33,328 bases of DNA. Origin: a candidate division FCPU426 bacterium (GTDB taxonomy: Bacteria > Oederibacteriota > JAAXVQ01 > JAUVAV01). Under the pieces are notes generated by a model that saw only the letters and a program-made list of their open reading frames with translations, was not told the origin of the DNA and did not search any database. Numbering within the stretch: the stretch's first letter is position 1; each line of letters starts with the position of its first letter. Below are positions 11,016-33,204 of the stretch, piece by piece. The stretch spans positions 1 through 33,328 of the forward strand of contig JAUVAV010000031.1 in assembly GCA_030591525.1 (NCBI GenBank). Reading direction: 5' to 3'. The position numbers were made by a program, and so were the translations under genes.

Positions 11016-11597
11016 TTAAACCAGTTCCCGGCTGGAGGTGAGGTTTACACCGGCCGCTTGCATAATCTGCACGGCTTTTTCTTCGCTGCCAGGAGATATA
11101 TTCACGCCGCGTACCGCGTCCTGAATCAGCCAGACCTCGAATCCGGAGCGCAGCGCATCCAGAGCAGTGGCTTTAACGCAGTACTCCATAGCCACCCCGG
11201 TTACGAAAATCCGCTGAATATTACGCTGCTTCAGCCACTGGGCCAGATCCGTATCCTGAAATCCGGAGTAGGCCTCCTTATCCGGAGCCTCGGCCTTGCT
11301 GACAAGCTTATCAGCTGAACTGCTTTCCAGGTCCGGGTGAAATTCCGCGCCCCGGGTTCCCTGCACGCAATGCGCCGGCCAGGAACCATCCTTAAAAGCC
11401 GGGGAAACCGCAAAGCTGATATGATCAGCAGGGTGCCAATCCCGCGTAAAGACCCGGGTTGAAAAACCGGCCAGCAGACGATTGATCAGGGGGATAATCT
11501 CATCCCCTCCGGAAACCGCGAGCGCGCCGCCCGGCATAAAATCATTCTGCATATCCACGACAATCAAAGCGTCCGCGGGAGTAATAGTGAGCGGCAT
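11016..11597 (-). CDS. pncA: nicotinamidase
   Basis: PncA hydrolyses nicotinamide to nicotinate and ammonia. The 193-aa protein is an isochorismatase-fold hydrolase with D15 (ALIVVDMQNDF), K101 and C140 (GVAMEYCVKATALDA) as the expected catalytic triad, and metal ligands D53, H55 and H59 (TRDWHPADH). ATG 11597 is chosen over upstream in-frame starts because AGGAG lies 9-10 bases before it and the family normally begins a few residues before the DMQNDF strand. It is first in the pncA-pncB operon. A possible promoter lies about 50-80 bases upstream. Confidence 0.95.
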   Translation of the reverse strand: MPLTITPADALIVVDMQNDFMPGGALAVSGGDEIIPLINRLLAGFSTRVFTRDWHPADHISFAVSPAFKDGSWPAHCVQGTRGAEFHPDLESSSADKLVSKAEAPDKEAYSGFQDTDLAQWLKQRNIQRIFVTGVAMEYCVKATALDALRSGFEVWLIQDAVRGVNISPGSEEKAVQIMQAAGVNLTSSRELV

Positions 11598-11645
11598 GGC
11601 GGGTATCTCCTTTGTTTGAAGTTTGCTTCCCGTCCAGGGTGTATG

Positions 11646-11675
11646 TATTTTCCGTCTTTTGTAAATTAAAGTCAA
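11646..11675 (-). promoter_or_regulatory. possible pncAB promoter
   Basis: On the minus strand TTGACT (11675-11670) is followed after 18 bases by AAAATA (11651-11646), about 50 bases upstream of pncA. The -10 match is weak. Confidence 0.35.
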
Positions 11676-11730
11676 GCCGGGATGAGATATTCTAGTGTCA
11701 TGTTTCACAGGTACGTTGAATATATGTTTT

Positions 11731-11762
11731 GTCATTCCGGCATGCTTGAAGCCGGAATCCAG
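11731..11762 (-). repeat. REP-like palindromic repeat, left inverted copy
   Basis: Read on the minus strand it runs from CTGGATTCCGGCTT to CATGCCGGAATGAC. It matches 13835-13866 (plus strand) at 29 of 32 bases. Each unit is itself an imperfect dyad (GGATTCCGGC / GCCGGAATG). The two copies are inverted and bracket the AT-rich three-gene cassette. Confidence 0.75.
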
Positions 11763-12143
11763 AGGCTTTGATTTACAGATAGGAATTTGCTTTTTAGCTC
11801 ATCAGTGCTCAAATGTCAAAATGTCACGAATATTTCTTTTCCTTTTTCGTCGACACTGTCGTCGAAATTTGACCCCGCCGCGATCAATAAATATTTTCCT
11901 TTGTCCTGGTCTCACGATGTTATGTCAAGAAAAAAGTTATCCGCGAAAAAAAAGACTGCTCAGGGGAAAGAACATGGTGATTTTTTATTTAGGAGTTGGG
12001 GGAAAAATATCGTCATTGACGGCTGCTCCAGTTTTTGCTATATTATCATTCAAAAGCAATTACCTACCAGCTCAGCTTGCCGAAGATATTAGCAATTTAG
12101 TTAAAAAAGTATATCGATTATCAAAATAATTAGGAACGAAACA
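11763..12143 (+). other. AT-rich leader region before the cassette, no certain gene
   Basis: Two overlapping frames (11695-12129 and 11787-12092) are open here but show no family resemblance. They run into the left repeat and lack a good ribosome site. A fragment such as SSLTAAPVFAILSFKSN may be remnant coding. I do not call a gene. Confidence 0.35.
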
Positions 12144-12920
12144 ATGAATGCAGAAAATTATGACAATATTGAATATAAGGAAAATTTTTTAAAAGCAGTA
12201 ATATTTCGAATTGGTTTTAATAATATATTAAAAATATCACAAACTTTACCTGTTGCATTTCAAGATAAAATAAGGGCTAATTTTCCAATAACTGAAGAAC
12301 ACTCGGGGACAAAAATATTTACAGCCATTCAGGGTAATAAAAAGCAAGAACAAACAGAGTTTTATAAAGAATGGTGGTTTTTTAATAAAGATAAAACTAT
12401 GAAGGTTACTATAAATCCAGAAAGTTATGTATTTGAATCATTTAGTTATAAGAATTTTGAGGTTATTAATAAAAATATAAAAGAAACCTATGAAATATTT
12501 TCTCAGGAATATTCACCAATTGTATTTAATCGAATAGGTCTTAGGTACGTCAATGAATTATCTGTAAAGGATGGAAATCCTCTTAATTGGACTGAATATA
12601 TTGATGAAAATTTAACAAAAACAACAGACAGCTTTATCAAAGAAAAAGATAAAATATCTCGAGCTATGTCACAAATGCATTTAAACTATGATGATAAGAT
12701 GTTGATTTTTACATATGGTTTACATAACACGGAATTTCCTTCTAAAATAAGCAGGAAAGAGTTTGCTTTGGATCTGGATTGTTATACAACGGAATTTCCT
12801 GAAGAACAAAATATAAATATAGTCGAGGATTATCTGTGCACATTTCATAATTTGATTCAGAAGTATTTTGAAATGAGCATTAAAGATAAATTAAGAAATT
12901 TAATGGGGAGTAAAAAATGA
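12144..12920 (+). CDS. TIGR04255 family protein
   Basis: A 258-aa protein that fits the TIGR04255 family of unknown function: an opening YKENFLKAVIFRIGFNNILK, FP.. before residue 50, an aromatic middle (EWWFFNKDKTMKVTINPES), the FNRIGLRYVNEL segment and a C-terminal FHNLIQKYFE. There is no signal peptide or membrane segment, so it is likely cytoplasmic. ATG 12144 follows AGGAACG (12131-12137). Codon use is very AT-rich compared with the purine and NAD genes, pointing to recent transfer. Its TGA overlaps the next ATG. Together with two further overlapping genes it forms a compact cassette. A defence or other accessory role is my inference from setting, not from sequence. Confidence 0.8.
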   Translation: MNAENYDNIEYKENFLKAVIFRIGFNNILKISQTLPVAFQDKIRANFPITEEHSGTKIFTAIQGNKKQEQTEFYKEWWFFNKDKTMKVTINPESYVFESFSYKNFEVINKNIKETYEIFSQEYSPIVFNRIGLRYVNELSVKDGNPLNWTEYIDENLTKTTDSFIKEKDKISRAMSQMHLNYDDKMLIFTYGLHNTEFPSKISRKEFALDLDCYTTEFPEEQNINIVEDYLCTFHNLIQKYFEMSIKDKLRNLMGSKK

Positions 12921-13093
12921 ATAAATATTTTGAACAAAAAACAGAAAACTATTTTACACAAAACACCAAAGAATCAACAAAGAAGGATTCTGCAGAAAAA
13001 ATAAAATCGTATGATAAGGTTGAAATAGGCAAAGAATATAGTCGTAAAACTTCATCGTCTCGAGTAGTTGGATATGTTACAAAGCAAGATTGA
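12917..13093 (+). CDS. 58-aa basic protein, middle gene of the cassette
   Basis: ATG 12917 overlaps the TGA of the TIGR04255 gene (ATGA) and has GGGGAG 6 bases upstream. The product begins MNKYFEQKTENYFTQNTKES and is rich in Lys, Ser, Thr and Glu. It looks disordered apart from a possible short strand near the end (SSRVVGYVTKQD). Its last 20 bases overlap the start of the third gene. I recognise no family. Overlaps at both ends and a good ribosome site make it a probable real gene. Alternatively it could be part of a once-longer frame joined to gene three by a frameshift. Confidence 0.55.
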   Translation: MNKYFEQKTENYFTQNTKESTKKDSAEKIKSYDKVEIGKEYSRKTSSSRVVGYVTKQD

Positions 13094-13655
13094 GTCTTTT
13101 TATGAGAAACATAGTAAAAGTAGAGTTTGTCAGGGAGATATTCTTAGGGATTTTAAATTTAATATAGTTGCTGGAGATGAAATAATAGAGAAAGAGATAC
13201 TGTATGTTACGGTTGTTTCCCAAGATTGCGACTTGGATTTGAATAAGAAAAATAATCAAATATCAGATAGTGGCGAAGAAATAAATAATCAATTTTTACC
13301 CAACGCATTAATCCTACCAGCTTTTACTGTTAATGAATTTAAAGAGGGTGAACATTTAAAAGAATTGTATAAAGTAGTGCAGGAGCGAAAAAATCAAAAA
13401 ATAATTGACAAAATAAAAGAACAGAAAATGGAAAGGTATCATTTCATTCCACGAAATTTAGATTTTCAAATACCAGAGCTTATTGTTGATTTTAAAATAC
13501 ACTTTACAATTCCGCTAGGGGATATTGGGCAAACTTATAATGAGTGCTATTTAGCTACAATCAACGAGCTATTTCGTGAGAGACTATCGCAAAGATTCAC
13601 TACGTTTATTAACAGAATTGCTTTGCCGGAACTGGAGTTTGTAGCAGAACAATGA
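13074..13655 (+). CDS. unknown protein with VSQDCDL motif, third gene of the cassette
   Basis: A 193-aa soluble protein from ATG 13074 (an in-frame TTG lies at 13068), overlapping the previous gene by 20 bases. Features: an N-terminal segment with RVCQGDILRDFKFNIVAG, then a strand ending in the striking motif VVSQDCDLDLN with a paired Asp-Cys-Asp, a charged helical stretch (KVVQERKNQKIIDKIKEQK), and a C-terminal helix with basic and aromatic residues (ELFRERLSQRFTTFINRI). I have the impression that QGDI plus SQDCDL proteins form a loose family of hypothetical proteins, with no function known to me. The composition matches the AT-rich upstream genes, so all three moved together. Confidence 0.65.
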   Translation: MLQSKIESFYEKHSKSRVCQGDILRDFKFNIVAGDEIIEKEILYVTVVSQDCDLDLNKKNNQISDSGEEINNQFLPNALILPAFTVNEFKEGEHLKELYKVVQERKNQKIIDKIKEQKMERYHFIPRNLDFQIPELIVDFKIHFTIPLGDIGQTYNECYLATINELFRERLSQRFTTFINRIALPELEFVAEQ

Positions 13656-14090
13656 CCGAAATTTATAAATTGTTGGTACATTTCAACATGCTATTAAAAT
13701 ACTTGCTCGCCTATTTTTGAGCCATTTAAATCAAACGTGTATCTGTTGCGAAAACGCAATTTCTGGCAAATGCACTCCCATTTCGTCTCCACGGCGAAAG
13801 CCTGGGTCCAGGCCTGATTTTATCTATAAAGTCGCTGGATTCCGGCTAAAATCATGCCGGAATGACGGGCACTTCAGAACTTAGCACTTGGCTTAGGTTG
13901 CTTGAATTTGTCGTTTCCGCAACAGACATTAATTAAATTATCCGTTAAAATTACTTTGTTGTAAGCAGCATTGTTGTCCAAATTCCCCTTTGATTTACAC
14001 TTTTACAGCATATATTTTAATGAAATCCCTTATTTTTCAACACTTTTAAGTTTTTAGCGATAGATAGAGTCTATCCGGAGTCTCCCGGGT
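13656..14090. other. intergenic stretch with the right REP-like repeat
   Basis: This holds the repeat at 13835-13866. The rest is AT-rich sequence with no frame I can support on either strand. It separates the cassette from the convergent glcD-like gene. No convincing terminator hairpin is visible. Confidence 0.5.
13835..13866 (+). repeat. REP-like palindromic repeat, right copy
   Basis: CTGGATTCCGGCT...CATGCCGGAATGAC in plus orientation is the inverted partner of 11731-11762, with 3 mismatches in 32 bases. Confidence 0.75.
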
Positions 14091-15608
14091 TTAATCCAAA
14101 TATTTTTCCGGGAAAATGTTTCCGCGGTTTAGAATACCGGCCGGGTCGAAGATGCGCTTGACCCGGGCCATTTCCCGCAAGCCCGGCTCTCCCACCATGA
14201 TTTCCATAAAGGCATGCTTGATTTTACCGATGCCGTGCTCAGCGCTTACCGTACCGCCGCGGGCTACTGCTTCGCGGGCGAACTGTAAATAGAGATCTTT
14301 GGCAGCCTGGAATTCCGAGGCCTGACGGGGCAGTATATTGACGTGCAGATGGCATTCTCCAATATGCCCGAAAATTAAATATTGCAATCCCAGGCTCTCC
14401 AGGCCGCGGCGATAAATATTGAGCATTTCAGGAAAAGCTTTCTCCGGTACTGCCATATCGGTTCCCACCTTGGGGAAATTGCGCTGCCTTACCAGGCGGT
14501 TAACAGCTTCGGGCAGGGCATGGCGAAATTCCTGCAAACGCCGGACATCCGGTTCGGTTTCCGCATACCAGATCATGTTTTCCGATACGCCTCTTTGATC
14601 CAGAAATTCCGACCATTGTGCAAGTGCCTCATCCTGCTTGCCGGGAGAATACTCCTGTTCCATCAATAATACGGCCCGGCTGATATCAGGGATATTGGGA
14701 AATTCCGGCCGGAGCAAATCCAGAGCCTGCTGATCCATGAACTCCAACGAGGCCGGACCGGTCTGGAAGGCGGAATCTTTGGTCTGGTTGCGAATAATCG
14801 CGGCGCAATCAACCGCGCTCGGCATATCCGGGAAAAAGACGGCCAGCGTGAAACGGCCGGCCGGCGCGCGCAGCAATTTGAGTTTCAGAGAGGTAATTAC
14901 TGCCAGAGTACCGTCCATGCCGATTAACAGATCAATCGGGTCCATATCCGGCACGGAGAAGTATCCAGCCGCATTTTTAGTCACTTCCAGGGAGGGAAGC
15001 AAGGGGCGTTGGCATTCCAGTGTTCGGCCGGAAGACAGCGGGAATTTCAAGAGGTCTTGGGAGGTCCGGGATCGGCCGCGTTCCAGGCGCAGGATTTCAC
15101 CCGTGGACAGCACGGCGGTTAAAGCCAGCACGTGTTCGCGGGTGGCGCCGTATTTAAAACTCCGTCCGCCGCTGGCATTGGTTGACGCATTACCGCCCAG
15201 CGTGCCGGTTTTCTCCGTGGGATCCGGGCCGTAGAGCAGGCCGGCCTGGCTAGCCGCGGATATCAGGGTTTCCAGCCGGACCGCCGGGCCAAGAGTTACC
15301 CAGCCGCCTTCTCCGGTGAGTTCAATCTTATTGAGAGTATCCAGGCGTTCCATGGAAAGCAGGGTGCCTCCCTGGGCAATGCATCCCGCGCTTACTCCGG
15401 TACGGCCCCCCACGATGGTGATGCTTTCTTTCTTCCGGGAGGCTTGCTTTAAATATTCAGCGACCTCGGATTCGGTCTCGGGAATTACCAGGCGTTCGGC
15501 ATATCCCTGGGTGAAACCTGAGGCATCTTCCAAATACCCAGTTATGACAGACGGATCAATTTTAATCAGCAAGGCCGCGGCCTCCTCTTCTGCCGGATAT
15601 CCTAGCAT
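14091..15608 (-). CDS. FAD-linked oxidase, GlcD / D-lactate dehydrogenase family
   Basis: A 505-aa flavoprotein of the GlcD/DLD (2-hydroxyacid dehydrogenase) group. The PCMH-type FAD-binding half shows VIPETESEVAEYLKQA, ITIVGGRTGVSAG (63-75) and GTLGGNASTNASGG (135-148). The C-terminal half has the metal and substrate-site pattern HIGECHLHVN and the closing AEHGIGKIKHAFM. It probably oxidises D-lactate, glycolate or a similar 2-hydroxyacid and passes electrons to a quinone or partner iron-sulfur protein. No GlcE/GlcF-type partner is adjacent. The motif reads C-H where D/G-N-x-H is usual (GECHLH). ATG 15608 has no clear ribosome site. It stands alone on the minus strand. Confidence 0.85.
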   Translation of the reverse strand: MLGYPAEEEAAALLIKIDPSVITGYLEDASGFTQGYAERLVIPETESEVAEYLKQASRKKESITIVGGRTGVSAGCIAQGGTLLSMERLDTLNKIELTGEGGWVTLGPAVRLETLISAASQAGLLYGPDPTEKTGTLGGNASTNASGGRSFKYGATREHVLALTAVLSTGEILRLERGRSRTSQDLLKFPLSSGRTLECQRPLLPSLEVTKNAAGYFSVPDMDPIDLLIGMDGTLAVITSLKLKLLRAPAGRFTLAVFFPDMPSAVDCAAIIRNQTKDSAFQTGPASLEFMDQQALDLLRPEFPNIPDISRAVLLMEQEYSPGKQDEALAQWSEFLDQRGVSENMIWYAETEPDVRRLQEFRHALPEAVNRLVRQRNFPKVGTDMAVPEKAFPEMLNIYRRGLESLGLQYLIFGHIGECHLHVNILPRQASEFQAAKDLYLQFAREAVARGGTVSAEHGIGKIKHAFMEIMVGEPGLREMARVKRIFDPAGILNRGNIFPEKYLD

Positions 15609-15693: not shown

Positions 15694-16022
15694 ATGGGAG
15701 AAAAAATCTATAAATCCCGCCATCCTAAAAGAACTAAGTTGTGGCAATGTTTGCATGTCCATTTCGATGATTACCTTAACCATTATAAAGAGAAGTATGA
15801 AAAAAGCCATGGCTATTTGAGACCGATAGTTTTAGAAGTAGTAAAGAAATATCTGGAATGTGGGGATTTGAGCAAAGGCTTTGCGCGGATAGTATGCCAG
15901 AAGTGTAAACAAGAATATTTATTAGCCTTTTCCTGCCGGGGACGATGGTTTTGTCCCAGTTGTCATCAGAAAAAAGTATTGCATTTTGGTGAAAATATCA
16001 CCGCTAACATAGCCTATCCGGT
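15694..16022 (+). pseudogene. IS91-type transposase, N-terminal zinc-binding fragment
   Basis: From ATG 15694 the frame carries the N-terminal zinc-binding domain of IS91-like transposases: HGYLRPIVLEVVKKYLECGD, GFARIVCQKCKQEYLLAFSC and RGRWFCPSCHQKKVLHFGE. The paired CxxC sites (CQKC, CPSC) are intact. Similarity ends at about AYPV (16010-16020), just where family members continue with a PHRQ-type stretch. The reading frame runs on out of phase to 16146 through another gene's codons. The catalytic domain is gone, so it cannot transpose by itself. Confidence 0.8.
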
Positions 16023-16525
16023 GGATTATTTTAGGTCTGCTCCTGGCCGCTGGCAACGGAATTCAAGCTTCCCTTGCCGGCTTTGTCATCCTGCCCACCC
16101 TGTTAATGCTGCTGTTTTGCCAAAAATACCCGAAATGGTGGTTTGACTGGAATTTTAATCTCGCCGGTTTCGCGGCCCGTGTCACGGTTTATATCACGCT
16201 CCTAAGCGATGTCTATCCTTCCACCGATGAAGAACAGTACGTGCACCTTCAGCTCCCTTACCCGAATGCCAAAGAAGATCTCAACCGCTGGCTGCCCCTG
16301 GTCAAATGGTTTCTCGCCATCCCCCATTACATCGTCCTGGCCGTACTCAGCATTATCGTCATAATCGTCGTAATAATTTCCTGGTTCGCGATCCTGTTTA
16401 CAGGTCGCATTCCCAAGAATTTTTTTGAATTTATCGCAGGGGTGTTTCGCTGGCATTTGCGGGTGGCAGGGTATGCCCTGCTGCTAACCACAGACCAATA
16501 TCCGCCGTTTCGTTTAGTAGAATAG
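16019..16525 (+). pseudogene. DUF4389 family membrane protein, 5'-truncated
   Basis: In frame from about 16019 the sequence reads RWIILGLLLAAGNGIQ and FVILPTLLMLLFC, then KYPKWWFDWNFNLAGFAARV, PSTDEEQYVHLQLPYP, LVKWFLAIPHYIVL and a further membrane helix, ending at TAG 16523-16525. This is the DUF4389 pattern of conserved aromatic motifs between membrane helices. The N-terminal portion is missing and the preceding sequence belongs to an IS91-type transposase in another frame. An internal ATG 16106 could give a 139-aa stub. Function of the family is unknown. The remaining part is well preserved, so the truncation is probably recent. Confidence 0.75.
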
Positions 16526-28185: not shown

Positions 28186-28214
28186 ATTATAGTGTTATTG
28201 ATTAAATTTATCAA
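28186..28214 (-). promoter_or_regulatory. near-consensus promoter of a leaderless transcript
   Basis: Minus strand TTGATA (28214-28209), exact 17-base spacer, TATAAT (28191-28186). The ATG at 28179 follows only 6 bases after the -10 box, so the transcript should begin at or next to the start codon. Confidence 0.7.
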
Positions 28215-28224
28215 TAATAAATTA

Positions 28225-28240
28225 GGGGACGTTGGTTCTC
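28225..28240 (+). repeat. RAYT-associated terminal repeat, left end
   Basis: GGGGACGTTGGTTCTC is the inverse of the right-end motif GAGAAYCAACGTYCCC found at 29293, 30735 (with one difference), 32331 and 33182. It lies about 50 bases before the transposase gene. Confidence 0.75.
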
Positions 28241-28290
28241 AAGATGCGCTGGCCTTGACAAACTAACTTACGTTGCGTAAAATAATTTTT

Positions 28291-29280
28291 ATGCCACGCC
28301 AAGCCCGGTTAGACATTCCTGGTGCTCTCCACCATATTATGGTGCGGGGTATAAACAAATCTGCCATCTTTCAAGATGACCAGGACAAACTACAGTTTTT
28401 AGAACGGTTAGGCAAAAACATCACCACCGGACACTGTCAAATTTATGCTTGGGTTCTCATGCGCAATCACTTGCATATTCTCTTTAGAAGCGGCCAAGAC
28501 GGTATTTCCACTATCATGCGCAAGCTGCTCACGTGGTACGCTCAGTATTTTAACCGGCGGCATCATCGCACGGGTCACCTCTTTGAAAACCGATACAAAT
28601 CCATTCTCTGTGAAGAAGAAAAGTATCTTTTGGCCCTTGTCCGATATATTCACCTTAATCCAGTCAGAGCTAAAAGCATATCTTCAATAGAAGAAATGGA
28701 TCGCTATCAGTGGAGTGGACACCGCGCTATAATCGGAAAGACAGAATACCCCTGGATGGAGGTCAGTGACGTCTTGGCGCAATTCGGGGGCACCAAGAAA
28801 AAGGCGGTTAAAGAATACCGGCAGTTTATGAAGGATGGAATGGGAAGGGAAAGAACCGCTGAATTCTCCGGCGGCGGAATAATCAGGAGTCAAGGTGGAT
28901 GGTCACATGTAGTGGCCATGCGGAGAAAGGAGCAGCCGGAGGAGGGGGACGAACGGATATTAGGAAGCGGAGAATTTGTCCGTGCAATTCTCAAGAATAC
29001 GGAAGAGCGATATTTGCGCCAATTGAAACTACGTCGCAACGGCAGAAAAATAGATGATATAATTCAAGATGAATGCAAGCAGAGCAGAGTGAGTCCGGAG
29101 GAGTTGAAGCTGGGGAACAAAAGAAGTTTGGTCAGCATGATCCGTGAAAGCATAGCGATACGAGGCCGGGAAGAGCTGGGACTTAGCGGCGCAGAGATGG
29201 CTCGTCATTTGGGAGTGAATACTTCGAGCATCAATCGCGCGCTGGTGCGTTGTGAACAGGAGAGGGAAAAGGGTGCATGA
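28291..29280 (+). CDS. REP-associated tyrosine transposase (RAYT, Y1_Tnp)
   Basis: A 329-aa HUH-family single-strand transposase. It opens with MPRQARLDIPGALHHIMVRG, has the metal-binding HLH at 60-62 (RNHLHILF), a candidate nucleophile tyrosine in LTWYAQYFNRRHHRTGHLFE (Y83 or Y86), and the family block RYKSILCEEEKYLLALVRYIHLNPVRAKS. The C-terminal 60 or so residues form a DnaA-like helix-turn-helix (GLSGAEMARHLGVNTSSINRALVR), a long-form RAYT feature. ATG 28291 fits the family start; the in-frame TTG 28273 is less likely. Inverted terminal motifs at 28225-28240 and 29293-29308 define a unit of about 1.08 kb. Several partial right ends lie within 4 kb. It appears intact and possibly active. 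Confidence 0.9.
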   Translation: MPRQARLDIPGALHHIMVRGINKSAIFQDDQDKLQFLERLGKNITTGHCQIYAWVLMRNHLHILFRSGQDGISTIMRKLLTWYAQYFNRRHHRTGHLFENRYKSILCEEEKYLLALVRYIHLNPVRAKSISSIEEMDRYQWSGHRAIIGKTEYPWMEVSDVLAQFGGTKKKAVKEYRQFMKDGMGRERTAEFSGGGIIRSQGGWSHVVAMRRKEQPEEGDERILGSGEFVRAILKNTEERYLRQLKLRRNGRKIDDIIQDECKQSRVSPEELKLGNKRSLVSMIRESIAIRGREELGLSGAEMARHLGVNTSSINRALVRCEQEREKGA

Positions 29281-29292
29281 GCAATGCATCGT

Positions 29293-29308
29293 GAGAATCA
29301 ACGTCCCC
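29293..29308 (+). repeat. RAYT-associated terminal repeat, right end
   Basis: GAGAATCAACGTCCCC, 12 bases after the transposase stop, is the complement of the left end with one difference. Confidence 0.75.
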
Positions 29309-29393
29309 AATTTCGCCGCTCCAAGCTAAATATAACTTCATTTGAAAATTATATGTTACAGTTAATCATTAAAAAGAGGGGGTGAATTCTTTG

Positions 29394-30425: not shown

Positions 30426-30787
30426 CCCCCGGCGGTGATTTCAGGTTGTCATCTTCAAGGCCACGGGGAAGTTTGAACAATAAAGGGAATAGCTAGCCAT
30501 TAAATCGATGGAGCGGGTAGGCGGCTCCGTGAAAATTAGGGACGGTGATTCTTAAATTACTCCGCCCTGAAGGGCGGGGAATTTGATGCGAGAGGTAGAA
30601 AGGCATTATTTGTATGGCCGCCTCATCCCCGCCTTGAACATGCATATCAATAATAATCTTCATCTCATGTCACGAAGTCAAGGCGGGGAATTCGTGGCGA
30701 CGTATTAAGATGTTTTAATTTTCGAACGCATTCTCAGAATCAACGTCCCCTATTTCACTATTTTAAGGATGAAAAATGAAATCTCAA
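30426..30787. other. intergenic repeat cluster
   Basis: No gene. It contains hairpin CCGCCCT-GA-AGGGCGG (30562-30577), a second pair CCCCGCCTTGA / TCAAGGCGGGG (30627-30637 and 30678-30688) and a RAYT right-end-like motif CAGAATCAACGTCCCC (30735-30750). It lies between two convergent genes, so the hairpins may also terminate transcription. Confidence 0.6.
30627..30710. repeat. GC-hairpin repeat with GGGGAATTCGTGGCGA tail
   Basis: Arms CCCCGCCTTGA and complement are 40 bases apart, followed by AATTCGTGGCGACGTATTAAG. Similar tails occur at 18618-18648 (GGGGAATTTGCGAC, then CGTATTAAG) and, inverted, at 33040-33075. It resembles ends of IS200/IS605-type elements. Confidence 0.5.
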
Positions 30788-32258: not shown

Positions 32259-32346
32259 ACTTCGAGCATCAATCGCGCGCTGGTGCGTTGTGAACAGGAG
32301 AGGGAAAAGGGTGAATGAGCAATGCATCGTGAGAACCAACGTTCCC
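32259..32346 (+). repeat. partial copy of RAYT 3' end plus right terminus
   Basis: Matches 29221-29308 over 88 bases with 3 differences. It includes the last 20 codons of the transposase, its stop region (TGA shifted by C to A in GTGCATGA) and the terminal motif GAGAACCAACGTTCCC. The upstream 90 percent of the transposase is missing. Confidence 0.85.
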
Positions 32347-32361
32347 TATTACCAGTGGTTA

Positions 32362-32829: not shown

Positions 32830-33138
32830 AGTATTCCTCCTACAATGGTTTCTTCCATAGTATCGGCTGGGTAAAATAAAAATATTAATAAAATTATGGA
32901 TTTTTATCTCATATCCCATCATAGCCTGAGTAATCGCCTATCTGCAGGTAGCCTCGATAACCCGTCAATATCAGCCGGTTTTTATCATTTCGACTAAACC
33001 AAAGAGAACATAATACCGCCAATATTATGAAAATTAATCCCTAGCCGCGAATCCCCCGCCTTTCAAGGCGGAATATTTTAGTATCTGAGATATCCACGAT
33101 CAGGAGGCAGAGTATGCCGAATCAGAGCCGTATAACCA
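32830..33138. other. intergenic stretch with a GC hairpin
   Basis: CCGCCTT-TC-AAGGCGG (33050-33065) is part of the IS200/IS605-like repeat family also seen near 30562 and 30627. No gene is visible. A short frame at 33115-33210 is generated by the adjacent RAYT right-end copy. Confidence 0.5.
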
Positions 33139-33197
33139 TTGTGAACAGGAGAGGGAAAAGGGTGCATGAGCAATGCATCGTGAGAACCAACGTCCCC
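33139..33197 (+). repeat. partial copy of RAYT right end
   Basis: Matches 29250-29308 over 59 bases with 1 difference. It is the shortest of the 3'-end copies and ends with GAGAACCAACGTCCCC. Confidence 0.85.
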
Positions 33198-33204
33198 TAT
33201 TTCA

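Follow-up and report, generated by a model that had tools for sequence, protein, structure and literature searches.

A TIGR04255 operon in a candidate division FCPU426 bacterium: a putative tripartite toxin-antitoxin module with a predicted MazF-like protein

Introduction

In TAC modules, SecB-like chaperones accompany the HigBA, HicAB or MqsRA pairs (PMC5105189), and the antitoxins carry a chaperone-addiction (ChAD) extension that is absent from chaperone-free homologues (PMC5105189, PMC6377645). In CmdTAC, once a phage capsid protein titrates the chaperone, the antitoxin undergoes degradation, which frees the toxin (PMC11618068). In the Panacea (PanAT) systems, accessory third genes are only rare (PMC8832971).

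Here we describe a three-gene operon in a 33,328-nt contig of a candidate division FCPU426 bacterium; "the window" refers to this whole stretch of DNA. We give a probability of about 0.6 to the reading that the trio is a TAC-like tripartite toxin-antitoxin operon, in which gene 3 is the toxin, gene 2 the antitoxin, and gene 1 the third component. The reading builds on gene order, overlaps between the genes, a MazF-like predicted fold, toxin-antitoxin-like pairs that are swapped between loci, and longer N-termini of the middle protein in one family.

The operon resembles the TAC systems (Mtb HigBA1-SecB, MqsRA-SecB, HicAB-SecB and CmdTAC) in having three genes and in that one third-component family occurs with several unrelated toxin-antitoxin families; among its HEPN-type relatives, the putative antitoxin also has an extra terminal segment when the third component is present. 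It differs in that the third component is a TIGR04255 protein instead of a SecB-like one and is encoded first, the extension of those relatives is N-terminal, against C-terminal in TAC, and the toxin folds proposed here are MazF-like, HEPN, PIN and DUF7689. The likeness to MazEF/PemIK is that gene 3 is a predicted MazF/PemK barrel with a small partner encoded just upstream and overlapping it. However, gene 3 has no Pfam PemK match, it has an additional helix at the C-terminus, the motifs QxCD and ExxLSQ...RxGLP replace the catalytic Arg and Thr of MazF, gene 2 is unlike MazE, and there is a third gene. As in PanAT, one family swaps among many toxin folds, and a Panacea antitoxin is itself found in one TIGR04255 operon. 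In PanAT the common part is the antitoxin, whereas here a further gene upstream is what the operons share, and their middle genes differ.

Three overlapping genes of atypical base composition

Gene 1 (12144..12920, + strand) encodes a TIGR04255 family protein of 258 aa, the proposed chaperone- or sensor-like third component. Gene 2 (12917..13093, +) encodes a middle protein of 58 aa, the proposed antitoxin. Gene 3 (13074..13655, +) encodes a QxCD protein of 193 aa counted from the ATG at 13074, the proposed toxin with a MazF/PemK-like barrel. A sequence-only reading of this DNA had described three genes overlapping end to end, and the ORF coordinates agree: genes 1 and 2 overlap by 4 bases (ATGA), and genes 2 and 3 by 20 bases. 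The same reading had found the base composition far from that of the neighbours, which also holds. The G+C content of the operon is 28.6%, with a z of about -4.3 relative to other 1.5-kb windows of the same stretch, and GC3 is 0.20-0.26 in the operon versus 0.58-0.61 in neighbouring genes. Its assignment of gene 1 to TIGR04255 is confirmed by the NCBIfam model (E 2.9e-35; 122.3 bits for a cutoff of 30; profile positions 2-252 of 252). No Pfam, NCBIfam or PADLOC model matches gene 2 or gene 3 above threshold.

TIGR04255 operons across 384 genomes

TIGR04255 is present in 43 of 384 genomes from across the domain and in none of the 14 well-known control genomes that we checked, an absence that would be part of the reason why the family has been overlooked. 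Neither TIGR04255 nor DUF7689 is named in any open-library paper searched; subscription papers, preprints and supplements lie outside that search, and an earlier description of these operons elsewhere in the literature is possible. From the 384 genomes, 40 TIGR04255 loci are readable, and nearly all of them run on into two further genes on the same strand. The middle gene, with its start taken from the longest ORF, begins between -3 and +4 bases from the end of TIGR04255 in 28 of 39 cases.

The distal genes are of several types. Eight are HEPN-like and homologous to one another; Pfam recognizes HEPN in two of them, and profiles recognize it in all eight. Five loci have PIN and three have DUF7689 distal genes. 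The QxCD protein is distal in seven loci (L100, L105, L109, L116, L121, L124, L129), where L116 is assigned by motif and context only, L129 is a weak match, and L105 is broken. At least seven distal proteins belong to one further type, which ends in NWLEFL or GWP motifs and includes two BLAST clusters of 4 and 3 members, and many other distal genes belong to no known family. The middle proteins are mostly without HTH; in one operon (L130) the middle gene is the Panacea antitoxin mentioned above (3.4e-16). We suspected by eye that L119/L120 were HicA/HicB, and considered L108 as PemK; Pfam supports neither. Where a locus has no TIGR04255 match, a search for a divergent copy gives one weak candidate (L051, 38.5% probability) and no support at L074, L037, L084 or L029. 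In three loci (L013, L099, L101), TIGR04255 is followed by a gene of about 140-160 aa and then by a DUF7689 protein; the latter has the motif YNC[IV]AWAAG and by eye is a possible cysteine-enzyme toxin.

The AlphaFold2 model of gene 1 (pLDDT 92, pTM 0.89) has a beta-alpha-beta architecture in two halves; its PDB matches, to AdoMetDC/TBP-like folds, are all weak. SecB is absent from the top 50 PDB fold matches, and a single viral SecB match is not significant (prob 0.23). As far as fold matching of the model goes, TIGR04255 resembles neither SecB nor another known chaperone.

The N-terminal extension of the middle protein

In relatives, the gene at the position of gene 2 encodes either a protein of 59-140 aa or an HTH protein of 189-231 aa. 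For the short subfamily to which gene 2 itself belongs, every relative found has TIGR04255. An N-terminal motif with a Tyr common to all middle proteins looks suggestive by eye, and we do not claim it.

We compared the lengths of middle proteins with and without TIGR04255 in two middle-gene families, both distinct from the 58-aa subfamily of gene 2. For the HEPN type, a profile of the conserved domain of the middle gene identifies 16 loci in the 384 genomes. Where an intact TIGR04255 lies upstream, the domain is preceded by 56-86 residues (n=8, median 74), against 25-52 residues without it (n=6, median 29), which amounts to about 45 extra N-terminal residues. The difference has a Mann-Whitney P=0.002 (0.003 when one locus of uncertain start is added), for small numbers of related, non-independent sequences with predicted start codons. 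We excluded from the comparison one fusion locus (L148), where a deletion has apparently joined the N-terminus of TIGR04255 in frame with the HEPN-partner domain. The second type has 54-115 residues with TIGR04255 (six loci) and about 28 and 19 without it, in two loci only; the direction agrees, but from so few loci we draw no claim. Within the QxCD family, middle genes are shorter in most loci without TIGR04255, with uncertain starts and with L055 and L082 as exceptions. Four Methanothrix loci (L053, L075, L078, L081) have a middle gene and gene 3 without a recognized TIGR04255, and that middle gene may be only about 70 aa long.

An N-terminal extension linked to TIGR04255 suggests contact between the two proteins. 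This bears on a different reading, in which TIGR04255 would be a DNA-binding autoregulator, shaped like the TBP saddle and repressing the promoter where the antitoxin has no DNA-binding domain. Its position as the first gene and the scarcity of HTH domains in the middle proteins are what such a repressor would lead one to expect, and the gene 1 model has a weak fold likeness to TBP, to duplicated folds of the AdoMetDC type and to viral early transcription factors. However, the TM-scores of those matches are low (0.4 or below), TIGR04255 also accompanies HTH middle genes, where a second DNA-binding protein would be redundant, and the extension points to a protein partner. We consider the autoregulator unlikely.

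Conservation of the trio

A plasmid search with gene 3 gives one match, in Methylocystis, where the same three genes are found in the same order and also overlap. A profile built from two gene 3 sequences has matches in six of the 384 genomes, the source genome included, and in each of the other five the neighbourhood shows gene 3 accompanied by TIGR04255 and by a middle gene that varies. Scanning 84,980 species genomes with gene 3 only identifies 65 contigs from many phyla, archaea included. Co-occurrence of TIGR04255 with the SQDCDL protein in unrelated genomes had been set beforehand as what the sequence-only reading should predict, and the pair does co-occur in unrelated bacteria and archaea: 45 of the 65 contigs have a TIGR04255 gene upstream on the same strand, with room for one middle ORF. 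The remaining 20 contigs have no recognized TIGR04255, and among these exceptions are contig ends, loci with a different upstream gene of about 220-250 aa, and loci with a middle gene and gene 3 only. Judging from these comparisons of sequence, the trio is real and old.

A long form found on plasmids combines an HTH middle protein with a QxCD protein of 263-305 aa. The homology between long and short forms rests on the motif and on an alignment with 17-22% identity, apart from L121, a long form that the short-form profile detects (3.9e-8). Viral contigs have no match with our first gene 3 and TIGR04255 alignments, and three matches with a broader gene 3 alignment.

The same genomic contexts can be read as those of an abortive-infection or defence complex, in which TIGR04255 is a phage sensor or an obligatory effector subunit, gene 3 is not toxic on its own, and the pair falls outside the classical toxin-antitoxin systems. 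In favour of it are related trios in viral contigs, the HTH/long-QxCD form on plasmids, the swapping of partners, which is typical of defence modules, and the genes for restriction-modification, JetD, PDC-S05 or abortive infection that adjoin some loci. Amongst 125 immediate neighbours of gene 3 loci, some match restriction-modification, JetD, HmaC or PDC-S05 models; we claim no enrichment from these counts, and the named families are mostly housekeeping. That prevalence of housekeeping neighbours argues against the defence complex, as do the lack of any PADLOC model match and the relatives (Methanothrix and others) that consist of a middle gene and gene 3 only, as a self-sufficient toxin-antitoxin pair would. 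We regard this reading too as improbable. A role in defence or stress had been proposed from the sequence; what stands is a toxin-antitoxin-like operon with a third component, while defence itself is not borne out by the neighbours.

The QxCD protein has a MazF-like predicted fold

For gene 3, the AlphaFold2 model has pLDDT 87.5 and pTM 0.83. The 50 PDB matches that Foldseek lists for it are MazF-family chains and one CcdB, with a modest best E of 7e-4, probabilities of 0.87-1.00, and TM-scores by target of 0.58-0.69 for most. Sequence methods find less: the Pfam PemK_toxin model (PF02452) has no gene 3 match at E<=1, and a PDB sequence search with the gene 3 profile has no match. Comparing gene 3 with hhalign to a profile of 13 PemK sequences drawn from the genomes searched gives a short and weak alignment (32% probability over 24 columns), where controls with unrelated profiles reach at most 0.2% in at least four of five comparisons. 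The alignment pairs VVSQDCDL...NALILPAF of gene 3 with VLVIQNDIGN...TVIVAAIT of MazF, and it places QDCD at the region of the "QNDIGN" loop. The catalytic residues of B. subtilis MazF, Arg25 and Thr48, fall in this weak and short alignment near Leu43 and Phe84 of gene 3, so there is no catalytic counterpart. By its predicted fold, gene 3 is a divergent MazF/PemK-like barrel, and we do not place it in the MazF family.

Across the alignment of 66 gene 3 sequences, the invariant residues are Q20, Q50, C52, D53, E169 and R181, and those near-invariant are G21-D22, D139-F140, Y167-R168, LSQ and GLP. An Asp-Cys-Asp motif had been called conserved from the one sequence. Its Cys and last Asp do not vary, but its first Asp does, and the motif is better written QxCD (here Q50-D51-C52-D53, 13221..13232, + strand). 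It is a possible metal or catalytic site.

The absence of the MazF catalytic residues and of a PF02452 match, together with how common SH3-like barrels are, could be taken to mean that the MazF-like fold is a coincidence, a small SH3-like barrel in a selfish or metabolic cassette outside toxin-antitoxin biology, which is the least probable of the alternatives given that the Foldseek top list is uniformly MazF/CcdB, that the profile alignment selects the matching strand-loop, and that PIN, HEPN and Panacea proteins occur in other TIGR04255 operons.

A proposed mechanism

For the trio as a TAC-like operon, we propose that gene 3 would be a toxin, most simply an RNase, with the QxCD motif as its site, and that gene 2 would be a short antitoxin neutralising it. 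The TIGR04255 protein would bind the gene 2 antitoxin, probably via the N-terminal segment of the antitoxin, and keep it folded or protected. Titration or loss of gene 1 would then release the toxin. A phage product is one possible trigger, and by analogy one like that of CmdTAC is conceivable. Toxicity, neutralisation, the chaperone or sensor role of gene 1 and any phage trigger are what we infer from the comparative results.

A broader proposal, to which we give somewhat less than an even chance, is that TIGR04255 is a new dedicated third-component family (chaperone or infection sensor) distinct from SecB, and that many unrelated toxin-antitoxin pairs in both bacteria and archaea have adopted it by way of an N-terminal addiction segment in their antitoxins. 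The version in the window would then be a minimal one, its toxin being divergent and MazF-like. If so, about one in nine of the sampled prokaryote genomes would carry an overlooked toxin-antitoxin-like operon with a common third protein, and "chaperone addiction" would have had more than one origin, on protein folds that are unrelated. TIGR04255, a family of unassigned function, would acquire a testable role, and a divergent MazF-like toxin family and further candidate toxin families (DUF7689 and the NWLEFL/GWP type) would become available for the study of phage defence.

Insertion site and repeats

The cassette lies in the pncA-glcD intergenic region (11598..14090), between the pncA start at 11597 and the glcD end at 14091. 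The listed pncA ORF (11016-11735, - strand) is too long. In relatives the alignment begins no earlier than about residue 38-47, so the probable start of pncA is 11597, where we place it at the conserved methionine of MPLTITP..., and the left repeat described below is intergenic. In two family members without the cassette (G007 and G004), glcD and pncA have the same order with 72 bp and 120 bp between them; here they are 2.5 kb apart with the trio in between. Within the phylum, 2 of 45 genomes have TIGR04255. The cassette was acquired horizontally and inserted between glcD and pncA, and the earlier description of a horizontally moved module is borne out by the atypical G+C, the sporadic presence of the family, and the adjacency of glcD and pncA in relatives without it. 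In a congener (G006), glcD is followed downstream by other cargo, after which the contig stops, and the site is not readable through there. That cargo (L201) has an ORF for a membrane protein, another of 119 aa, and the beginning of what may be a SIR2-like ORF (FLFGAGLS...). That the congener carries something else on this side of the site suggests an insertion hotspot.

Two copies of a palindromic repeat flank the cassette in inverted orientation (11731..11769, + strand, and 13828..13866, - strand). They are 39 nt long and 87% complementary, with 29 of 32 positions matching over the 32 bp first described. The repeats are present as reported, but not as brackets or a vehicle of the cassette, and neither copy is part of the module. 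A strict palindrome pattern has 51 exact copies in the incomplete 2.7-Mb genome, against none for the reversed control pattern; the repeats are thus common genome-wide, the finding that had been named in advance as telling against a bracketing role. In G006, window bases 11840-11776 and 11685-11621 are joined directly. The left repeat sits in an indel of about 90 bp (11686-11775) relative to G006, inside native DNA upstream of pncA, with homology resuming at 11776-11840. Because this native homology runs past the repeat, the edge of the cassette lies to the right of 11840 and not at the left repeat. The flanking repeats are incidental to the cassette. We also considered them as transposon ends, which the genome-wide copies and the position of the left copy within native DNA rule out; by eye, the bases just outside the two repeats have no duplication.

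A REP-like origin of the dispersed palindromes is plausible. Four genes for Y1_Tnp/RAYT-type transposases are found in the genome, one of them in the window (28330-28653, + strand). Near this RAYT gene there are a second inverted-repeat family (28213-28248 / 30727-30762) and direct 92-nt repeats that are 72-96% identical (29221-29312, 32259-32350 and 33110-33201). Elsewhere in the window, an ORF at 15694-16146 (+) looks by eye like the zinc-binding part of an IS91-type transposase, apparently truncated.
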